From: Candidatus Fermentibacterota bacterium | GTDB lineage: Bacteria > JAFGKV01 | Length of the DNA: 8,981 nt | Assembly (NCBI GenBank): GCA_030620115.1 | Contig: JAUXFG010000156.1 | Coordinates: 1 to 8,981 of the forward strand | Direction of reading: 5' to 3' | In this document: piece by piece, positions 2,297-8,981 of the stretch | Numbering within the stretch: the stretch's first letter is position 1 | Layout of the letters: every line of letters begins with the position of its first letter | Program-made: the position numbers and the translations under genes | Notes under the pieces: generated by a model | Seen by the model: the letters and a program-made list of their open reading frames with translations, nothing else | What the model was told of the DNA's origin: nothing | The model's database searches: none

Positions 2297-2412
2297 CTTC
2301 GACTTGGCTCAGGACAGGCGGCGAAGCTCGGGATCACGTGACCATGTTGGCACGTGGAACGTGACTCACGTGGCGGGGTTTTTGGGACAAGAAATGGGAA
2401 GTTCGGGTTAAG
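2297..2412. repeat. Degenerate MITE-like element, one terminal repeat only
   Basis: Positions 2297-2319 carry a 23-nt module (CTTCGAC...GGCTCAGGACAGGC) that recurs, diverged, at 4017-4039 and inverted at 3937-3959. Positions 2396-2412 (GGGAAGTTCGGGTTAAG) match the right-end terminal repeat of the elements at 3885-4066 and 8685-8757. No matching left end was found upstream, so this is best read as a left-truncated copy of the same family. The order, module then right end, is the same as in the 3885-4066 copy, but the spacing is longer (76 against 12 nt). Confidence 0.5.
2335..2372. repeat. Three CACGTG palindromes at exact 16-bp spacing
   Basis: CACGTG occurs at 2335-2340, 2351-2356 and 2367-2372, each start 16 bp after the previous one. 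The bases between differ, so this is not a simple tandem duplication. It could be an operator array for a dimeric regulator or leftover repeat structure. It lies about 330 bp upstream of the DUF5916 start and downstream of the oxidase stop, so no target gene is obvious. Confidence 0.5.
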
Positions 2413-2426
2413 AGGCTCATATTGGC

Positions 2427-2446
2427 GGACGCGACGGAGCGCGTCC
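2427..2446. repeat. Palindromic repeat hairpin (GGACGCG/CGCGTCC)
   Basis: GGACGCG at 2427-2433 and CGCGTCC at 2440-2446 form a perfect 7-bp stem with a 6-nt loop, inside TTGGCGGACGCG and CGCGTCCCTCC flanks. From memory, near-identical palindromes are dispersed in many environmental bacterial genomes; I treat it as a REP-like repeat rather than a terminator. Confidence 0.55.
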
Positions 2447-2482
2447 CTCCACAGGATAAGACGCACAGATTCCTCGCTGGAG

Positions 2483-2502
2483 GGCCACGGTCTCTCGTGG
2501 CC
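2483..2502. repeat. Palindromic repeat hairpin (GGCCACG/CGTGGCC)
   Basis: GGCCACG at 2483-2489 and CGTGGCC at 2496-2502 form a perfect 7-bp stem with loop GTCTCT. It sits between two other GC-rich palindromes, giving three tandem hairpins within about 130 bp downstream of the alternative oxidase gene. Confidence 0.55.
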
Positions 2503-2540
2503 GCGTTTGGCGCCGATAGGTCCGGACGCTGGTTGGCGGT

Positions 2541-2557
2541 TGCGGCCGGAGGCCGCC
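2541..2557. repeat. REP-like palindrome abutting the oxidase stop codon
   Basis: GCGGCC at 2542-2547 and GGCCGC at 2551-2556 pair around a GGA loop. The 17-nt unit is found again, perfectly and inverted, at 4393-4409. It begins directly after the TGA stop of the minus-strand oxidase gene (stop at 2558-2560). It may stop transcription or protect the mRNA end, though no T-run follows. Confidence 0.6.
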
Positions 2558-3232
2558 TCAGGCAGGCCTTTCGTATTCAACCACACATTCCGGTTTGCCA
2601 CAGAACACGAAGCTTTTGTTCATATGATCCCGTTCATCGAGTCCGATGCGCCTAAACACTTCCGCCCAGGTGTTGAAGCTTCCATATTGTTTCACTAATT
2701 CATTGTTGACTGGCTGTTCCTCCCATTCCGGGTGTTCTTCAACGAATTGCGCGTACACGTGCTCCGCATGATCCTCGAACTCCGCGTTGAACAGGAACGC
2801 CCTACGGATGTTGATCAAAGCCATTGTGCGCGTCAGAAGAGCATAGAACGCGACCATCAGAAATGGGATAGGCGGGAACAGATACCATCGATTCTTGAGG
2901 CCATCTTCTTTCATCTTCTCATTGATGATGAGCAGGTGCCAATACTCATTATCTTGAGCCTCGCGACTCCACGCCATAATCCTGCGCGCCTGTCTCACCA
3001 GTTCTTGGTTGCGATAGCGACGTGTCATCCTCGAGTATTGACGGATTTCCCAAGCCCTATAAGGAATGCCGGCCAACATTTCGATGAGTTTTGCCTTGGC
3101 AAGTGTCACTTTCTTGCCCGCAACCAAGTCCATCGAGAGGAAAAAGAATCGTGCCGCTATTGAATACTTGTACCGAGGCCGAGTCCTTGACGCTTGCTGT
3201 TCCCGTTTGAGGTCGATGTTGGTCTGTTCCAT
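2558..3232 (-). CDS. Divergent alternative oxidase (ubiquinol oxidase, non-electrogenic)
   Basis: The 224-residue protein fits the AOX family, di-iron monotopic membrane enzymes that oxidise ubiquinol and reduce oxygen to water without pumping protons. All six iron ligands are visible in order: E51 in LIEMLAGIP (compare LETVAGVPG), E96 and H99 in NEYWHLL (compare NERMHL), E153 in FEDHAEHVY (compare LEEEAVHTY, with the active-site Tyr as Y160), and E200 and H203 in LDERDHMNK (compare ADEAHHRDVN). The hydrophobic stretch WYLFPPIPFLMVAFYALL (116-133) fits the membrane-binding helix. No targeting peptide is present, and the length is right for bacterial AOX. The ATG at 3232 has only a weak purine-rich region upstream; an inverted repeat lies 20 nt upstream. 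The protein ends directly at a REP-like palindrome. Motif wording is clearly diverged from mitochondrial and proteobacterial AOX, so the oxidase activity is inferred, while family membership is strong. Confidence 0.88.
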   Translation of the reverse strand: MEQTNIDLKREQQASRTRPRYKYSIAARFFFLSMDLVAGKKVTLAKAKLIEMLAGIPYRAWEIRQYSRMTRRYRNQELVRQARRIMAWSREAQDNEYWHLLIINEKMKEDGLKNRWYLFPPIPFLMVAFYALLTRTMALINIRRAFLFNAEFEDHAEHVYAQFVEEHPEWEEQPVNNELVKQYGSFNTWAEVFRRIGLDERDHMNKSFVFCGKPECVVEYERPA

Positions 3233-3251
3233 TGATGTGTCCAGTCAGGTC

Positions 3252-3274
3252 AGTGTTGCCGGCTAATCAACACT
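3252..3274. promoter_or_regulatory. Inverted repeat just upstream of the alternative oxidase start
   Basis: AGTGTTG at 3252-3258 and CAACACT at 3268-3274 are perfect inverted repeats with a 9-nt spacer, ending 20 nt from the oxidase start codon. The symmetry and position fit an operator or a 5' leader hairpin. I recognise no specific regulator site. The assignment as regulatory is inference from position only. Confidence 0.35.
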
Positions 3275-3297
3275 ATTCCGACTCTTCAGGTTGTGCG

Positions 3298-3354
3298 AGT
3301 GTTCAGGGGTTCAGGAAAATGCCTGGCCCATGGCCGCTGATCCCCCTGAACACT
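3298..3354. repeat. 12-bp perfect inverted repeat between the small unknown gene and the oxidase
   Basis: AGTGTTCAGGGG at 3298-3309 pairs perfectly with CCCCTGAACACT at 3343-3354, and the loop contains a second dyad, GGCCCATGGCC. It lies 51 nt beyond the stop of the minus-strand gene at 3405-3725 and upstream of the oxidase. There is no T-tract, so it is more likely a dispersed palindromic repeat than an intrinsic terminator, though it may still stabilise the mRNA end. Confidence 0.5.
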
Positions 3355-3404
3355 GAACTGCCCAGTGAGCTCGACATCACAGGCCGGGAGACACCTCTGA
3401 GATC

Positions 3405-3725
3405 CTACATCTGTAGCGTTTCCGCCCCTGCTGCCTCAAGCTTCTCGGCCAGTCTGCCAGCGATGGAGTTGAGGTCGCCTGTGTCGAAGAGCACGAACGT
3501 TCCATAGCGTAATTGAAAGAAGAGACCTGATCCTGTGGTTGCTATGGCAAGTTCGAGCGGGATCTTCTCCGCGCCTGCGGCGATTTGGTACCCTTTCCGC
3601 TTGAATATCATGTGTGTTGGGTTCTCTACATGAACCTCGAATCCCTCCTCAAGAATGAGCTTCTTAGCATCCTCCAGCGGGATCTTCACTTCGAGCTCTC
3701 TCTCAATCGGTTTCCAGCCCCACAT
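3405..3725 (-). CDS. Conserved-looking small protein of unknown function
   Basis: This is a 106-residue protein starting MWGWKPIERELEVKIP and ending AAGAETLQM. The start at ATG 3725 is well supported: AAAGGAG lies 6 nt upstream. There is no signal peptide or membrane segment, so it is probably cytoplasmic. The sequence alternates strands and helices: LEVKIPLEDAKKLILEEGF, then VHVENPTHMIFKRKGYQ, then a strand-rich middle (GLFFQLRYGTFVLFDTG), then a C-terminal amphipathic helix (LNSIAGRLAEKLEAAG). That suggests a compact alpha/beta domain. I recognise no family. It is separated from the oxidase gene by 172 bp with a long inverted repeat, so the two are probably not co-transcribed. The good ribosome binding site and plausible composition make it a real gene. 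Confidence 0.7.
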   Translation of the reverse strand: MWGWKPIERELEVKIPLEDAKKLILEEGFEVHVENPTHMIFKRKGYQIAAGAEKIPLELAIATTGSGLFFQLRYGTFVLFDTGDLNSIAGRLAEKLEAAGAETLQM

Positions 3726-3884
3726 TGAGTGCTCCTTTCCGGCTAAGGACGGTCATAGCGGTCGGCTCGTACATCCGGGAAGACTTGTCAGTCAGGACGG
3801 CCAGGCCGTGTGACAGGATTCACATCCACGCGTATGAAAGTATCTCAATTGATGCCAACGAGCAAGCATAAACAGTATTGGGAT

Positions 3885-4066
3885 TAACCCGGACTTCTCG
3901 ATCCTGCGACCGCCACAGGACAGAGGAACGCCTTCAGCCTGTCCTGAGCGTAGTCGAAGGGAGCCCGGGGCAGGGGTCGCAAGCCTTGTCCCGTATCAGC
4001 GCAGGACCGTTTCGTACTTCGGCAAGGCTCAGTGCAGGCGAGAGTGTCGGTGAGAAGTCCGGGTTA
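3885..4066. mobile_element. MITE-like element with terminal inverted repeats TAACCCGGACTTCTC
   Basis: The left end TAACCCGGACTTCTC (3885-3899) is repeated perfectly inverted at 4052-4066, giving a 182-bp element with no coding capacity. Inside is a second, imperfect 23-nt inverted pair at 3937-3959 and 4017-4039, so a single strand could fold into a long nested hairpin. The same terminal repeat occurs at 2396-2412 and at both ends of 8685-8757. The ends sit in TTAA on the left and TTAG on the right, hinting at a TTAA-like target. Its right end abuts the C-terminal codons of the WecG pseudogene, so insertion here may have removed that gene's last residues. No transposase is in the window. Confidence 0.65.
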
Positions 4067-4067
4067 G

Positions 4068-4374
4068 CAGATGCCACACGAAGACAGGATTGCCGATCAG
4101 GTAGCGGCGCCATAACCGAGCCGGCTCAAGCACCAAGAAAGAACAGGCCAGAGCCTTGCACATCCATGGATGCCAGAAGCCGGTCAAACCAATCCGGAAG
4201 CGCCAGGCGTTCAGGCAAGCTCTCGCCGAGTAGACGCGCCCCCCATTTGACGCCAAATCCGTCACAGAAAACAATATCACAGCTATTCATGAAGTCGCGA
4301 AGCCACTCTTGCTTCAACGAGAGGTTGGTCAAGCCAGCATGAATGCCCGCCATGGTGATGTAGTCTATGGGCAT
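4068..4374 (-). pseudogene. WecG/TagA/CpsF glycosyltransferase remnant, copy A (internal deletion and frameshift)
   Basis: From ATG 4374 the frame reads MPIDYITMAGIHA, then LSLKQEWLRDFMNSC and DIVFCDGFGVKWGARLLGE, then LALPDWFDRLLAS and LFFLGA before a TGA at 4126-4128. This is the N-terminal half of the GT26 fold, which transfers N-acetylmannosamine-type sugars onto lipid-linked intermediates. Overlapping in another frame is LEPARLWRRYLIGNPVFVWHLL (about 4133-4068), which is the family's C-terminal helix. The roughly 100 residues between Rossmann strand and tail are gone, with a frame change. The usual stretch between the PID..T segment and NL(A/S) (family pattern NVHxxNLA) is also missing after GIHA. 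The tail runs into the terminal repeat of the MITE-like element. The gene is dead. Confidence 0.8.
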
Positions 4375-4390
4375 CTCATGCAACTTCCCT
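4247..4390. repeat. Duplicated block 1, copy A (WecG N-terminus)
   Basis: Positions 4247-4390 match 7536-7670 with five mismatches and one 9-bp gap in the second copy (the codons for VFC). Together with block 2, in the same order and orientation 3.1-3.3 kb away, this shows a segmental duplication. Confidence 0.9.
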
Positions 4391-4392
4391 AA

Positions 4393-4530
4393 GGCGGCCT
4401 CCGGCCGCAATCCCGCGCAGTATGCGGGATTGATCCTCGGTCCTGTAGCTCCCCATGAGGACACCCGCACTCTGAAAGCTAGTGCCACTATCTACGCAAG
4501 AAACGTAGATGTCTCGGACAAAGGCTCTAA
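4393..4530. mobile_element. 138-bp insertion with hairpins, flanked by CTAA
   Basis: Relative to the other copy of the duplication (7669-7673), copy A has exactly 138 extra bases. CTAA at 4389-4392 is repeated at 4527-4530, while the unoccupied copy has CTAT, so this looks like a 134-bp element with a 4-bp target duplication. It starts with two tandem hairpins: GCGGCC/GGCCGC (4394-4408) and a 9-bp stem CAATCCCGC/GCGGGATTG (4408-4432). Near its far end is a third, ATCTACG/CGTAGAT (4490-4510). There is no coding capacity and no clear terminal inverted repeat. The alternative, a deletion in the other copy between short direct repeats, is possible. Confidence 0.55.
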
Positions 4531-4554
4531 CTGTCTCCTTTGTCGCCACACGTA

Positions 4555-4626
4555 CTATGACTGCCCCATCTCCTCAACCAAATCCTGAAGCTGACCGTGC
4601 ATCTCCCGGAATACCGCCTGTATCCT
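4555..4626 (-). pseudogene. C-terminal fragment of a duplicate of the membrane-anchored protein at 7697-8293
   Basis: The minus strand encodes RIQAVFREMHGQLQDLVEE followed by MGQS and a TAG stop at 4555-4557. The intact protein ends RIQAIFQEMHGQLQDLVEE, MGQS and stop, so only two of these residues differ. The homology ends abruptly at about 4627, so only the last two dozen codons survive. At the DNA level 4531-4626 and 7673-7768 differ at nine positions, several of them C/T transitions. Confidence 0.85.
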
Positions 4627-4732
4627 GGGATGTTTCATTCTCTCGTCTTACAGTCTCGGCCTATCGCTACGGCTCAAGATTAGGAATATGGAATCCCCTA
4701 GAGAGATTCCGGAACCGTGGCGCCACCACCAG

Positions 4733-4850
4733 TCATTGCGAGGAGGATAGCGACGAAGCAATCTCATCCGCCCATCGAGATCGCCGCGCTGTTGCTCGCG
4801 ATGACCTCCGGGGTCTTAGCCATTGCAAGGAGGGTTCCGAAAGTGCAAAT
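4733..4850. repeat. Dispersed inverted repeat of the CATTGCGAGGAG...GAAGCAATCTC type, with a partial second unit
   Basis: CATTGCGAGGAG at 4735-4746 and GACGAAGCAATCTC form the left half. Positions 4777-4805 (GAGATCGCC ... CTCGCGATGAC) are a decayed inverted right half. A partial direct copy, CATTGCAAGGAGG followed by GTGCAAATC, follows at 4818-4850. From memory, this palindrome family is widespread between genes in many environmental genomes. It is non-coding and can fold into a long hairpin. Confidence 0.65.
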
Positions 4851-4933
4851 CACTCTCCGGCCTGTCCTAAAGCATCACGAAAGCGCTGCCAAAGGCGGCA
4901 TCAAGCTCAAGATGCTGTCGATTTTGGTGCACC

Positions 4934-4959
4934 GGGACGTGGTGAAAAGGCCACGTCCC
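4934..4959. repeat. Hairpin GGGACGTGG/CCACGTCCC
   Basis: A perfect 9-bp stem (4934-4942 with 4951-4959) has the loop TGAAAAGG. It lies about 100 bp downstream of the lipoprotein stop, beyond the stronger terminator-like hairpin, so it could be a second-line terminator or another dispersed palindrome. Confidence 0.45.
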
Positions 4960-4998
4960 AGGCATTGGTCGGCGCCGGGCCCGGAGGTTTGGCACGAC

Positions 4999-5025
4999 GA
5001 AGCCCCCGCAAGAGCGGGGGGCTTC
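4999..5025 (-). terminator. Terminator-like hairpin downstream of the lipoprotein gene
   Basis: GAAGCCCCCGC (4999-5009) pairs with GCGGGGGGCTTC (5014-5025), with one bulged base and a 4-nt AAGA loop. It begins about 30 nt after the TAG stop of the minus-strand lipoprotein gene. The stem is very GC-rich; the following T-stretch is poor (TTCGTCGT), so it is terminator-like rather than canonical. Confidence 0.6.
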
Positions 5026-5055
5026 TCTCGGTGAATGCTCAGCGAACCAGGTGAC

Positions 5056-7191
5056 CTAGTCCTCCAGATAGACCGCGATGTAGTGCTCGGAACAGGTCTT
5101 CCAGAAGCTGTTCGAATCGTAGCCGACCTCGTCGATGTCGCCGGTTCTGATGCACGACAACTCCAACCCGATGATACTGACGGATACGCTCGCAAGGTCG
5201 TCCGCGGTGATCGAGTAGAGTCCGTCGTTCTCCGTCTCGACCGTGAAAGCCACCAGGTCGTCTTCGCCGTAGATGGTGAGATGTATCAGGCCGCCGTCGT
5301 TGCCGCCCCACTCCACATCGAAGCCCGAGGTCGAGACGACATCCATCGTGGCGAGGTTTGTGATGTAGGGCTCGTGGGAGATGTGCGTGACGACCTGGGT
5401 CAGGTCGGGTATATCGTCGTTGCCGTCGATGGTGAAGGTGTAATCGGCGCCCAGGGTTAGCATCTCTCCGGGGATCATGGTTAGGTAGGAGTAATTCTCG
5501 TCACCGGGGTCCCAGACGAGGTCCCGGATGTCGAAGGTGACGCCGTCGACCTGGAGAGGCGTGACGGGATCGGCACTGACGACCTCATCAAAGCGCGCGT
5601 TGTAAAGCTCGGCGCGGCCTACGTAGTCGGGGGCGACGAAGGCCATCGTCCGCCTGATTAGCAATTCGCAGTAGACGCCCTCCGCGGCAATGTCCACTTC
5701 CACCATGGCCACGAAGTCCGACAGATGGTCGATATCCGCCTCGACATAGTCCATGGACTCATAGACCTCACACGCAATCTGGACCCAGCCGCTGCCGGTG
5801 TCGGTGAAAATCGCGATCGAGCTCTCGTCGTTGCCGTTCAGGTCGGACTCGTCGTAATCGAAGTGCAGCTCCGCATCGACGGCGAAGGTTGTACCCGTAG
5901 GCTCGATGGTATAGACGGGCGTCATGAAGGCCCAACCCTCGGGCGCCGGCGTGGGCGAGCTGTTCACCGTGGCGGTAAAGTCCACTTCCGTGCTCAGGGC
6001 GCCGGATGGGATATCCAGGTAGCCGTCGTCACCCAGTGGCAGTATGCCGCCGTCGGGGCCGATACCGCCGCCGGCCGACAGGTTGATCATGGTGATGTTG
6101 GTCGTGCCCGCGCCTATGGTGCTGTTGGGGTCGTAGCCGTCGGCGGTAATGAACTCCACAGTGTAATGCCGCAGGTCCAGCGCATGCGGGCCCGCCGTCA
6201 GATCGGCCAGGTCGTCGGCCGAGAAGGTGTGGCTGCCGTCGTTGGCCGTCTCGATGCTGACGACCGTGAGTTGATCACCGCCGCTGATGATGGTGATCCA
6301 CACATCGCCTGCGTCGGTGTCGTCCCATTCCACCGTGAAACCGTCCAGGGAGAGAACCTGGTCGTTGATGATGTTGGTCACGGCGGGCTCGACGGTGGGG
6401 AAGTTGATGGCCTGCACCAGATCCGGCACGTCCTCGTTGCCGAAAACCTCGAATTCGTAATTCTCGCCGAGGACCAGGAATTCCGGCTCGGCATTCTGGT
6501 CGAGGTAGGTTGACATCATGCTATCCCAGGCCAGCTTGTATTCGTTGCAGTAGACAGAGTCCGGATGCAGCGAGAAATGCACATTGCAGGGGTCGACGAT
6601 GGTGTCGAAGCGGGCGGAGATAATGTCAACATCGACAAAGCCTACGTAGTTGACCGCCCGAACGAGTTCCAGCATGACGAAGACGCCCTCTGCGGCTTCA
6701 CCGTAGGGAATGGTCGCAACGTAATCGGAGAGGTGGTTGATCTCCGCTCCCGCCGTATTGGCGGACTCGTTCACGGTCGTGGCTACCGGGAGCCAGCCGG
6801 CGCCGTCGTCGGTGTAGATGATTACGGTGCTTTCGTCGGCGCCGTCGAGGTCCGCCTCGTCATAGTGGATGGTGATCGTGGCGGGGGAGCCGAATTGGGT
6901 GCCGTCGGGGCCGATGGTGAAGGCCGGCGACGCGAATTGGCGGCCCGCGCCCATGGCGGCCGGGGAGGTGTTCTCGTCCATGGTGAAGTCCACGTCGGCG
7001 CTGAGCGCGCCGGGCGGAATCTCCAGGGACGCCTCGCCGGGTCGGTTCAGCGTGCCGCCGGCCGCGCCGATCGTGGCCTCGGTGGTGTCGCTTGCTGGCG
7101 GGGCGGTCGCGTCGTCGCCGCAGCCGGCGGCAAGGGCCAGTGCGAGAGTCAGCGCTGTGATAGACCAGAGGTTGCATTTTCTGTCATTCAT
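5056..7191 (-). CDS. Large surface lipoprotein with two homologous ZU5-like modules
   Basis: I chose ATG 7191 over an upstream in-frame start at 7326 because AGGAGG sits 6 nt before it and a lipoprotein signal follows (MNDRKC..., hydrophobic core, ALAAGC with lipid-accepting C24). The mature protein of about 688 residues begins with a short linker (GDDATAPPASDTTE). It is an internal duplication. Half 1 (about 40-370) and half 2 (about 371-711) each start with a ZU5-like beta domain: IGAAGGTL..LEIPPGALS and IGPDGGIL..LDIPSGALS, ending INHLSDYVA and IDHLSDFVA. Each continues with a domain holding DVPDL/DIPDL, F(T/D)VEW, VETENDG or IETANDG, and FSADDLADL or ITADDLASV. It is probably anchored in the outer membrane facing outward or in the periplasm. 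Its role is unknown; ZU5-type domains serve adhesion or assembly elsewhere. Third codon positions are visibly richer in G/C than in neighbouring genes. Confidence 0.9.
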   Translation of the reverse strand: MNDRKCNLWSITALTLALALAAGCGDDATAPPASDTTEATIGAAGGTLNRPGEASLEIPPGALSADVDFTMDENTSPAAMGAGRQFASPAFTIGPDGTQFGSPATITIHYDEADLDGADESTVIIYTDDGAGWLPVATTVNESANTAGAEINHLSDYVATIPYGEAAEGVFVMLELVRAVNYVGFVDVDIISARFDTIVDPCNVHFSLHPDSVYCNEYKLAWDSMMSTYLDQNAEPEFLVLGENYEFEVFGNEDVPDLVQAINFPTVEPAVTNIINDQVLSLDGFTVEWDDTDAGDVWITIISGGDQLTVVSIETANDGSHTFSADDLADLTAGPHALDLRHYTVEFITADGYDPNSTIGAGTTNITMINLSAGGGIGPDGGILPLGDDGYLDIPSGALSTEVDFTATVNSSPTPAPEGWAFMTPVYTIEPTGTTFAVDAELHFDYDESDLNGNDESSIAIFTDTGSGWVQIACEVYESMDYVEADIDHLSDFVAMVEVDIAAEGVYCELLIRRTMAFVAPDYVGRAELYNARFDEVVSADPVTPLQVDGVTFDIRDLVWDPGDENYSYLTMIPGEMLTLGADYTFTIDGNDDIPDLTQVVTHISHEPYITNLATMDVVSTSGFDVEWGGNDGGLIHLTIYGEDDLVAFTVETENDGLYSITADDLASVSVSIIGLELSCIRTGDIDEVGYDSNSFWKTCSEHYIAVYLED

Positions 7192-7320
7192 TTGATCCCT
7201 CCTGTTGATTCCCAGGTCAATGGACACCGGTCCGGTATAGGCGAATAGGTTAAAAACAGCGCAATTATTTTCAAAATATCGAGTCAAATACGACCCCCGA
7301 ATTCCCACCAGACTCCTGGA
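7192..7320 (-). promoter_or_regulatory. AT-rich leader and likely promoter region of the lipoprotein gene
   Basis: An AT-rich stretch (about 7230-7290, containing TTATTTTCAAAATATCG on the plus strand) stands out in GC-rich surroundings, directly upstream of the lipoprotein's strong AGGAGG ribosome binding site. The minus strand has a TTGACT that could serve as a -35 box, but no convincing -10 box at standard spacing. I call only the region, not exact boxes. Confidence 0.35.
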
Positions 7321-7350
7321 CGACATGTGTCTGTCGGTGGGGCACTACGA

Positions 7351-7515
7351 TCAGCACGCCAGCACCAGCTTCGTCGTGCCGTGATGCTCTCTGGTGCCGA
7401 CATTCGCGAAGTACACGCCGCTAAACAGTGGGAAGCCGTTGTCGGAGAGAAGGGAAAAATAATCGCATAGTTTCATCGTTTCGCCCGGCTGAAGGCCATA
7501 TTCTAACATGAGCGG
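7351..7515 (-). pseudogene. C-terminal tail of a secreted protein (FlgD/T9SS-like sorting domain fragment)
   Basis: The frame ends DNGFPLFSGVYFANVGT, then EHHGTTKLVLAC and a TGA at 7351-7353. The pattern xxSGVYFxxx...xTxKLVL is the closing beta-hairpin of FlgD-Ig-like and type-A-sorting-like C-terminal domains found on secreted proteins of Bacteroidota and other FCB bacteria. The normal preceding WDG-type segment and the body of the protein are absent; upstream of about 7515 the sequence is unrelated and meets the WecG fragment. I read it as the surviving tail of a lost secreted protein, with no start codon of its own. Confidence 0.6.
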
Positions 7516-7525
7516 GGGTTCACAG

Positions 7526-7654
7526 TCAAGAGTTCTTGACGCCGAATCCGTCGATATCACAGCTATTCATGAAGTCGCGAAGCCACTCTTGCTTCAACGA
7601 GAGGTTGGTCAAGTCAGCATGAATGCCCGCCATGGTGATGTAGTCTATGGGCAT
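7526..7654 (-). pseudogene. WecG/TagA/CpsF glycosyltransferase remnant, copy B
   Basis: From ATG 7654 the frame encodes only 42 residues: MPIDYITMAGIHA, DLTNLSLKQEWLRDFMNSC, then DIDGFGVKNS and a stop. It matches copy A (4374 downward) almost exactly but lacks the VFC codons (9 bp) and breaks off at GVK. Both copies lack the same segment between GIHA and LSLKQ that family members normally have. The fragment cannot be active. It lies 42 nt downstream of the membrane-anchored protein gene, the arrangement that copy A also preserves in damaged form. Confidence 0.8.
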
Positions 7655-7670
7655 CTCAAACAACTTCCCT
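7536..7670. repeat. Duplicated block 1, copy B
   Basis: This is the partner of 4247-4390, in the same orientation. Its left boundary falls inside a quasi-palindrome, GTCAAGAGTTCTTGAC (7525-7540), where homology to copy A stops. Confidence 0.9.
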
Positions 7671-7672
7671 AT

Positions 7673-7768
7673 CTGCCTCGTTTGTCACCACACGTTCTAT
7701 GACTGCCCCATCTCCTCAACCAAATCTTGAAGCTGACCGTGCATCTCTTGGAATATCGCCTGTATTCT
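7673..7768. repeat. Duplicated block 2, copy B (partner of 4531-4626)
   Basis: The 96 nt match 4531-4626 with nine mismatches and no gap. The block covers the last codons and downstream sequence of the membrane-anchored protein gene. Blocks 1 and 2 are adjacent here, but separated by 138 bp in copy A. Confidence 0.9.
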
Positions 7769-8293
7769 CTGCAAGTAATCAGGGTACCAATCATACCGCT
7801 TTCTGAGCCGTCTCGTCTGGAGATCATAGAACTCATCCTTGCCTTTATCCAAGTTCGGCACAAGGATTTCGGCAGAAAGCCGATCGAACCTTTCTAGGAG
7901 TGCCGATGCAGCGGTTTGGGTCCCGTACAGTTGAACGATCCTGAACATGAGATTCACATCCATCACTTCCAGGCCCCCAACTTGCAGCGCGGCATCCCAC
8001 ATGTCCTGGGTTTTGCCCACAACCAAGACGAAGGTCCGGGGCATCGGCATCTCTCCTTGCTCATATGCATCAAGGAATCTCGCAAAAATACTATTGATCA
8101 TTGGGATGGATCCGTCGAACCCTTGGGAGAGCTCGCTGAACTGTTTGAACAAGGCGTTATGTACAACTCGCCGCTTCTCATCCTCCACTCTGTTCGCTCG
8201 ATACTCGTCCAGCAGAAAGGCCAGCGAGACACCGATGAACACCACGATCAGCTCGGCCACAAGCCAGCCGACTCGCTGCCTGCTGTTACTCAT
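7697..8293 (-). CDS. Membrane-anchored protein of unknown function, DUF6090-like N-terminus
   Basis: This is a 198-residue protein. I choose ATG 8293 (MSNSRQRVGWLVAE) rather than the GTG two codons earlier because AAGGAGG overlaps that GTG and ends 5 nt before this ATG. One transmembrane segment lies near the N-terminus (about 9-27, WLVAELIVVFIGVSLAFLL), followed by DEYRANRVEDEKRR. This layout, a hydrophobic helix then an acidic/basic turn then a helical body, resembles DUF6090-type proteins, an uncharacterised family common in environmental bacteria. The remainder looks largely helical (LLERFDRLSAEILVP, RRLRKRYDWYPDYLQRIQAIF) and probably lies in the periplasm or cytoplasm. No catalytic motif is evident. 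The gene is intact, and its 3' end is duplicated at 4531-4626. Confidence 0.8.
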   Translation of the reverse strand: MSNSRQRVGWLVAELIVVFIGVSLAFLLDEYRANRVEDEKRRVVHNALFKQFSELSQGFDGSIPMINSIFARFLDAYEQGEMPMPRTFVLVVGKTQDMWDAALQVGGLEVMDVNLMFRIVQLYGTQTAASALLERFDRLSAEILVPNLDKGKDEFYDLQTRRLRKRYDWYPDYLQRIQAIFQEMHGQLQDLVEEMGQS

Positions 8294-8377
8294 GATCACC
8301 TCCTTCGTGCATTCAACATGCTCATTCCGCGCGGAGGATCCTCGTGCCCTGCCACAAATCCCGCTGAAATAGTCGAC

Positions 8378-8620
8378 CTAACCTATACGAATACTCGAGC
8401 CCGCGAGAATAGCAAGTGAGAATGGGGGATGATCCACATAGCCCCACGCCGACTGCTTTGCGCACTCAATGCAATAGAACTCATCGCGGAACATGCCATA
8501 GCGCCCATTGGTGATCAGATGGAGCAAGAAATGCACGAATACGATGATAAACACAGCCAACATGCCGCTGACTCGTGATCTTTCTTCATCGTTTCTACCC
8601 CTGCAGCAAAAGACACCCAT
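8378..8620 (-). pseudogene. N-terminal stub of a GT-C glycosyltransferase (PMT/ArnT-like, GT39/GT83 type)
   Basis: The frame contains a transmembrane helix (MLAVFIIVFVHFLLHLI), then NGRYGMFRDEFYC, then AWGYVDHPPFSLAIL. In this superfamily the first transmembrane helix is followed by GRYGYFRDE(L/F)Y and WGYVDxPP; the DE pair is the catalytic acidic motif in the first extracytoplasmic loop. These enzymes use polyprenyl-phosphate sugars to modify proteins or lipid A. Full-length members exceed 450 residues. Here the sequence stops after LAGSSIRIG, at most 80 residues, with no continuation in other frames. The start is uncertain (ATG 8620 or the in-frame ATG 8563); neither has a clear ribosome binding site. 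It is a truncated remnant. Confidence 0.75.
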
Positions 8621-8684
8621 CTAAAGGCTGGCGTGGAGGCCCAATCTCACTCCCTGCTGGATTTCCTCTTCTCTCGTACCCATC

Positions 8685-8757
8685 CTTAACCCGAACTTCT
8701 CATCCCGCGTCCGACGCGGGACTTCGCTTCGAAAGACGATGAGAAATCCAGGTTAAG
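8685..8757. mobile_element. Short 73-bp MITE-like element with 20-nt imperfect terminal inverted repeats
   Basis: The left end CTTAACCCGAACTTCTCATC (8685-8704) pairs with GATGAGAAATCCAGGTTAAG (8738-8757), 17 of 20 positions matching. Inside is a perfect 7-bp hairpin CCCGCGT-CCG-ACGCGGG (8704-8720). The outer bases are the same terminal repeat as in the 3885-4066 element, so this is a shorter relative with different internal sequence. It cannot encode a protein. Confidence 0.65.
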
Positions 8758-8981
8758 TTCTCAATAGCTCGGTGCAGCATGGGAGAAATCCCCCTCAATC
8801 CCTCTTTGCCAAAGCTGTCACTCGGACACACTTAACACCGGGGGCAATTTGAAGCGAAACCCAACGCTTTGATGTTCTGAAAATGAGCTGCCATTGTGCC
8901 CCGAAGGGGCGTGACATACCAGCCCAGGGCAAGCCCGATAGGGCGTAACCCTGGGGCAGGGTAACAAAATGCCCTCAGCCC
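8758..8981. repeat. Gene-free right end with a nested palindromic repeat
   Basis: No gene is visible. Positions 8898-8910 form GCCCC-GAA-GGGGC. Next, CCCAGGG (8923-8929) pairs with CCCTGGG (8949-8955), enclosing a second stem, GCCC-GATA-GGGC (8933-8944). From memory, similar stretches (CCCCGAAGGGGCG... CAGCCCAGGGC) are dispersed in many Planctomycetes-like and other environmental genomes. Positions 8758-8890 contain nothing I recognise. Confidence 0.6.

Follow-up and report, generated by a model that had tools for sequence, protein, structure and literature searches.

Terminal repeats and elements in the window

We investigated an 8,981-nt stretch of DNA (the window; contig JAUXFG010000156.1 of assembly GCA_030620115.1, here C80) from a Candidatus Fermentibacterota bacterium, whose draft genome comprises 4.10 Mb in 296 contigs. 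The window carries two short intergenic elements belonging to a multicopy family of miniature inverted-repeat transposable elements (MITEs). With up to 3 mismatches allowed, the end sequence TTAACCCGGACTTCTC has five matches in the window, compared to 0.03 expected from shuffles, at 2396-2411 (-), 3884-3899 (+), 4052-4067 (-), 8686-8701 (+) and 8741-8756 (-). The corresponding features are the following.

3884-3887, no strand: left flank TTAA of copy 1, a YTAR target and target-site duplication according to the sequence and the YTAR and direct-repeat statistics
3888-4063, + strand: MITE copy 1, 176 bp, bounded by CCCGGACTTCTC and GAGAAGTCCGGG, its interior a mosaic
4064-4067, no strand: right flank TTAG of copy 1, its last base unlike that of the left flank TTAA, as in many older copies
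8686-8689, no strand: left flank TTAA of copy 2, read from the sequence
8690-8752, + strand: MITE copy 2, 63 bp, bounded by CCCGAACTTCTC and GAGAAATCCAGG, most of its interior replaced by the palindrome P1
8703-8721, + strand: palindrome P1 TCCCGCGTCCGACGCGGGA within copy 2, from the listing of P1 on C80
8753-8756, no strand: right flank TTAA of copy 2, identical to the left flank
2396-2411, - strand: lone family end TTAACCCGAACTTCCC, genuine by the genome-wide end statistics

An initial annotation of this DNA had proposed that the same ends bound elements at 3885-4066 and 8685-8757, which holds within a few bases (3888-4063, and 8690-8752 plus flanks). Copy 1 lies between open reading frames (ORFs) at 3405-3725 (-) and 4126-4488 (-), and as a single strand it forms one long, branched hairpin (−91.8 kcal/mol). 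The third occurrence noted in that annotation, at 2396-2412, is a real end by the genome-wide count (392 matches against 1 in the control), but no partner end was found within reach of 2396-2411, which leaves a lone or truncated end and no third element.

A genome-wide family inserted at YTAR sites

Approximately 390 YTAR-CCCGRACTTCTC ends are present in the genome. A search with YTARCCCGRACTTCTC, allowing one mismatch, gave 190 forward and 202 reverse matches (392 in total), compared to 0 and 1 for the reversed pattern. As two genomes of the same family (G001 and G002) contain 0 and 1 family ends, the family was either amplified in the lineage of the window after its split from these relatives or lost from them.

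Pair statistics were obtained on 1.8 Mb, i.e. 44% of the genome, consisting partly of contigs picked for having matches. With a looser end rule, this sequence exhibited 439 ends, in comparison with 31 in the reversed sequence. The search for paired inverted terminal repeats suggested by the initial annotation yielded 126 pairs of convergent ends less than 420 bp apart, bounding elements of 38-370 bp. The most frequent length is about 177 bp, 56 of the 126 elements span 170-216 bp, and copies of the 177-bp core type can be aligned over their full length. Lengths and flanks were determined on the 126 pairs, covariation on 23 copies, and a separate flank count on 17 copies of exactly 177 bp. Both ends share the consensus YTAR-CCCGGACTTCTCACC, most positions being conserved at 90-100%; the terminal inverted repeat of the family is CCCGGAYTTCTCACC, and the elements contain no transposase gene. 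Considering that the genome is a draft in 296 contigs, chance similarity or a repeat assembly artefact could be invoked, but this explanation, whose probability is negligible, is refuted by the counts (5 against 0.03 in the window, 439 against 31 ends under the looser rule) and by the unique flanks of copies on many contigs.

A YTAR tetranucleotide flanks 79 of the 126 elements on the left and 79 of the 126 on the right, for a genome background of 0.19%. The target preference first read as TTAA/TTAG is thus real, the target being YTAR and not TTAA alone. Exact 4-bp direct repeats at the flanks are enriched (24 compared to 12.8 in shuffles, p = 0.001); for inverted extensions of 4 bp there is no enrichment (16 compared to 13.1, p = 0.22). 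In the same way, the outer Y and R positions of the two flanks are equal more often than by chance (p = 0.03 and 0.01), which favours a duplication of 4 bp. In ERIC/Correia-type MITEs the duplication is the 2-bp TA.

Insertion is directly visible in nested copies: in each of four loci (L104, L106, L125 and L145), one element interrupts another at an identical position, with a 4-bp duplication. Uninterrupted copies give the empty site, GAATG-CGAG-GCTTGCG, and the filled site reads GAATG-YTAG-[177-197 bp]-CTCG-GCTTGCG; the joined flanks match the uninterrupted copies across the junction, and the filled site is longer by the element and 4 further bases. The outer flanks of the four composites are unrelated; therefore the nested composite itself moved, or was copied, as a unit.

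These short, multicopy, gene-less elements with inverted ends and a demonstrable insertion are supported as a MITE family. The proposal of non-autonomous elements moved through their ends by a transposase is upheld by the hundreds of paired ends, the 4-bp repeats, the nested filled and empty sites and the match to IS1380 ends described below. Among known bacterial MITEs, MITEPye1 is tied to IS1182 and occurs in 1-3 copies per chromosome (PMC11578231), and TIMEs are tied to Tn3 (PMC4133298). The present family is likewise short and gene-less, with terminal repeats of an insertion sequence (IS) family, target duplications and the ability to form hairpins, and its two copies in the window are intergenic. 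It differs by its IS1380-type ends, a copy number far above that of MITEPye1 and interiors exchanged for palindromes.

IS1380 ends and the candidate transposase

Comparison with known ISs, as the initial annotation had advised, showed that the first 12 bases of the family, CCCGGAYTTCTC, are those of the IS1380-family elements ISPa33 and ISMaq4 (12/12, with Y allowed at position 7). The agreement extends over 12 bases, 13 with the following A, and 15/15 in the IS of L261. The 17-mer CTAGCCCGGATTTCTCA is the IS1380-family terminus on plasmids, in ISPa33 (Citrobacter, Pseudomonas) and ISMaq4 (Methylophaga), and it also ends unnamed IS1380 elements in Hydrocarboniclastica and Halomonas. ISPa33, ISMaq4 and other plasmid IS1380 elements begin with CTAG followed by CCCGGATTTCTCA and sit between YTAR tetranucleotides; the plasmid copies present CTAG, TTAG or CTAA on both sides, CTAG being the commonest among the copies read. 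On a viral contig, the end reads CTAGCCCGGATTTCTCACC, with an IS1380 gene 0.1 kb inside, and agrees with the family consensus at 15/15 positions, with Y at position 7. This IS starts with CTAG followed by CCCGGATTTCTCACC and its transposase, of 453 aa, matches NF033539 (E = 5.6e-124). The three IS1380 transposases sampled (L261, L263 and L265) match the same model with E ≤ 1e-119.

Because the ends match IS1380 over 12-15 bases and the IS701 copy of this genome has other terminal bases, we assign the family, with a probability of roughly 0.87, to MITEs with IS1380 ends, which were probably mobilised by an IS1380 transposase since lost or missing from the assembly. To judge from the ends and the flank, the agent of movement would be an IS1380 enzyme rather than another one reading the same ends; this enzyme would have been lost from the genome or be absent from the assembly. 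In the proposed mechanism, an IS1380-family DDE transposase acting in trans would recognise the 12-15-bp ends and cut or copy the elements into new YTAR sites, duplicating those 4 bp. Amplification would have left the approximately 390 ends in the 4.1-Mb genome, and the transposase would later have been lost, or have remained unassembled.

Several observations weigh against this assignment. No IS1380 transposase above cut-off was detected in the genome, the best scores being 18.3 bits for PF13701 and 37.2 bits for NF033539 (cut-off 180), so that the search for an autonomous copy with the same ends, advised in the initial annotation, gave none in this genome; such partners, absent above cut-off from the assembly, were found only in other replicons. 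Similarity to an IS1380 element is confined to the ends and does not extend into the interior, the exact 4-bp repeat is kept in a minority of pairs only, and the 17 copies of exactly 177 bp show no excess of direct repeats (1 compared to 1.1). The occurrence of these ends in other phyla could also be partly convergent, 12 bases being few. A longer element with family ends was sought among the lone ends, and only small two-copy groups without a transposase were obtained. Many MITE families have no resident partner, so its absence does not exclude MITE membership. The IS1380 elements carrying NF033539-type transposases (ISPa33, ISMaq4) have the terminal bases and the YTAR flanks on both sides in common with the family, but they are about 1.56 kb long with a transposase gene, whereas the family comprises gene-less elements of 38-370 bp with an unrelated interior.

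The genome does contain an intact IS701-family transposase of 448 aa (NF033540, E = 2.2e-99), within a complete element.

L224 1141-2487, - strand: complete IS701 element, CTAG on both sides, ends CCCTACAACGACAGTTAG / CTAACCGTCGTTGTGGGG

Mobilisation of the family by this resident enzyme would agree with its CTAG duplication, as the element reads CTAG-CCCTACAACGACAGTTAG...CTAACCGTCGTTGTGGGG-CTAG, with the flank and the first three bases of the family. However, the IS701 terminal repeat leaves the family after CCC (CCCTACAACGAC compared to CCCGGACTTCTC, CCCTACAACGACAGTTAG compared to CCCGGACTTCTCACC), while IS1380 agrees over 12-15 bases. IS701, having the right flank and the wrong terminal repeat, is thus a very improbable driver and was rejected. 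The DDE_Tnp_1 ISs of the genome were also discarded: none is bounded by family ends, and the single end near an IS1182/IS5-like gene (L226) lies outside the IS.

Similar ends were found in unrelated bacteria. With YTARCCCGGAYTTCTCAYC (at most 2 mismatches), 154 matches were counted in a metagenome-assembled genome (MAG) of Verrucomicrobia, 126 and 86 in two MAGs of Gammaproteobacteria, 33 in one of Deltaproteobacteria and 6 to 22 in three of Alphaproteobacteria, the controls giving 0-1. A tighter end search among 144 relatives of one such MAG gave matches in 18. The readable copies of Alpha- and Gammaproteobacteria are also hairpins with almost perfect pairing; they have TTAA on both sides, and their interiors are unrelated. 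In GTDB representatives, most of the 65 single exact 16-mer matches look like chance, and at least 5 are real elements. No account of a MITE family having both IS1380 ends and a high copy number turned up in a full-text literature search. The presence of similar ends at 75-154 copies in unrelated Gammaproteobacteria and Verrucomicrobia suggests a class of IS1380 MITEs that is common but has gone unannotated, and that often outlives its transposase. Conjugative plasmids carry autonomous IS1380 elements that have these ends and neighbour resistance genes, so the arrival of such a plasmid could in principle set resident MITEs moving again.

Hairpins, palindrome exchange and neighbouring repeats

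A strand of the element folds as one long branched hairpin, with a median of −0.50 kcal/mol per base in comparison with −0.30 in neighbouring DNA; none of 115 controls attains the element median. Over 23 copies, 95% of cells remain paired in this structure; double-change cells number 64, compared to 23.6 in shuffles (0 of 500 shuffles reaching this value) and no more than 20 in slid versions. The arms of the element therefore change together, be it through selection or through conversion of one arm by the other.

The whole-element hairpin with compensatory changes (64 against 23.6) would also be expected if the elements were structured non-coding RNA genes, or palindromes similar to ERIC or to repetitive extragenic palindromic (REP) sequences, spread by recombination or RAYT, the YTAR flanks then being part of the element. 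The genome contains, moreover, two RAYT-like genes, and a family-like end lies no more than about 1 kb from each of them. We consider this explanation very unlikely: Rfam covariance models gave no match in the window elements at E ≤ 1 and none at the gathering threshold in four loci that contain full copies, a nested insertion brings in 4 bp besides the element itself, the ends are of the IS1380 type, and compensatory changes are expected anyway under conversion of inverted arms against each other. As drivers, the Y1_Tnp/RAYT genes were set aside, since they are surrounded by family-like ends and palindrome variants only, with no tagged palindromes. These RAYT-like transposase genes, at L254 907-1872 (-) and L255 1471-2445 (+), have a C-terminal part resembling the DnaA C-terminal domain. 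In the window, 8897-8955 (-) presents a sub-threshold match to the Acido-Lenti-1 RNA RF01687 (29.9 bits for a gathering threshold of 37, E = 0.001).

In the interiors of the IS1380-end MITEs, parts of the 177-bp consensus are replaced by palindromes of 16-28 nt, namely P1 (TCCCGCGTCNGACGCGGGA and close forms), P2 (TCCGCCAGCTGGCGGA) or P3 (TCCCGCACCCAA...TTGGGTGCGGGA). The junctions are recurrent: 91/148 was found at least 4 times, 153/162 4 times and 121/148 twice, and 91/99 occurs once with P1 and once with P2. Although the elements account for 1.1% of the sequence read, they contain 62 of the 127 P1-type and 25 of the 87 P2 palindromes. P1 gave 119 forward and 108 reverse matches in the genome, about half being the same places on both strands, and none in 59 other genomes, including the two of the same family. 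Two further repeat families, GGACGCGA[CGGAGCG]CGTCCCTCC and GGGGCAC[GGCATGCC]GTGCCC, have their short centre replaced by P2. The idea that P1 and P2 outside the elements always occupy hairpin centres was abandoned, as a 6-bp arm rule gave no support for it; the position is clear only in the MITE and in the repeat families F1 and F2. In the window, 2425-2450 is a hairpin repeat F1, GCGGACGCGACGGAGCGCGTCCCTCC, in the form without P2; elsewhere in the genome, the F1 centre is replaced by P2.

It is conceivable, although we regard it as doubtful, that P1, P2 and P3 are mobile modules that replace part of an existing hairpin, with the same junctions for different modules. In this view, a hairpin-cleaving nuclease or an enzyme of the RAYT type would act on hairpins that are extruded or single-stranded, and the MITEs, together with two or more other repeat families, would be remodelled arm by arm. 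Shared junctions can also be inherited from a small number of founder copies that then transposed, so that junction counts may exceed the number of independent exchanges. Small palindromes inside larger palindromic repeats are known in bacteria, as in the GTAG/CGTC REPs (PMC3733652). These carry a GTAG or CGTC tag, whereas the edges of P1, P2 and P3 have neither, and, unlike these REPs, the three palindromes stand in place of portions of a transposon-like element, with junctions that recur. In Volvox carteri organelle genomes, palindromic repeats are nested in others and composites occur at several sites (PMC2670323); nesting and multi-site composites are common to both systems, but the Volvox repeats are organelle DNA with no known terminal repeats of a transposon family. 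The palindrome exchanges would offer a natural record of hairpin DNA rearrangement in bacteria.

Copy 1 also contains a module of 24-29 nt.

3937-3965, + strand: dispersed module GCCTGTCCTGAGCGTAGTCGAAGG, inside copy 1, a repeat of its own that is no hallmark of the family
2291-2319, - strand: second copy of the dispersed module, upstream of the lone end 2396-2411

The cores at 2296-2319 and 3937-3960 are in opposite orientation. Its 23-nt version, initially taken as an inner feature shared by the elements, turned out to be a separate dispersed repeat, since just 3 of its 15 copies in the 1.8 Mb lie within paired elements.

Other features were noted in the window. Another dispersed repeat, TTCTCAATAAGTCCGTGCAGCATGGGAGAAATCCCCC, begins directly beside copy 2 (8758-8794; 24 copies in 1.8 Mb), and 4733-4763 belongs to the TCATTGCGAGGAGGATAGCGACGAAGCAATC repeat, whose 41 copies in 1.8 Mb all lie outside the MITEs. 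The ORF at 2558-3232 (-) has a weak alternative-oxidase (AOX) match, just under the Pfam cut-off. The segments 4274-4626 and 7554-7768 are duplicates, with pieces 97% and 86% identical. The first contains a 134-bp insert (4393-4526) flanked by CTAA on both sides, where the second (7554-7768) reads CTAT. The two segments represent a filled and an empty version of one YTAR-like site within the window, but family ends are absent.

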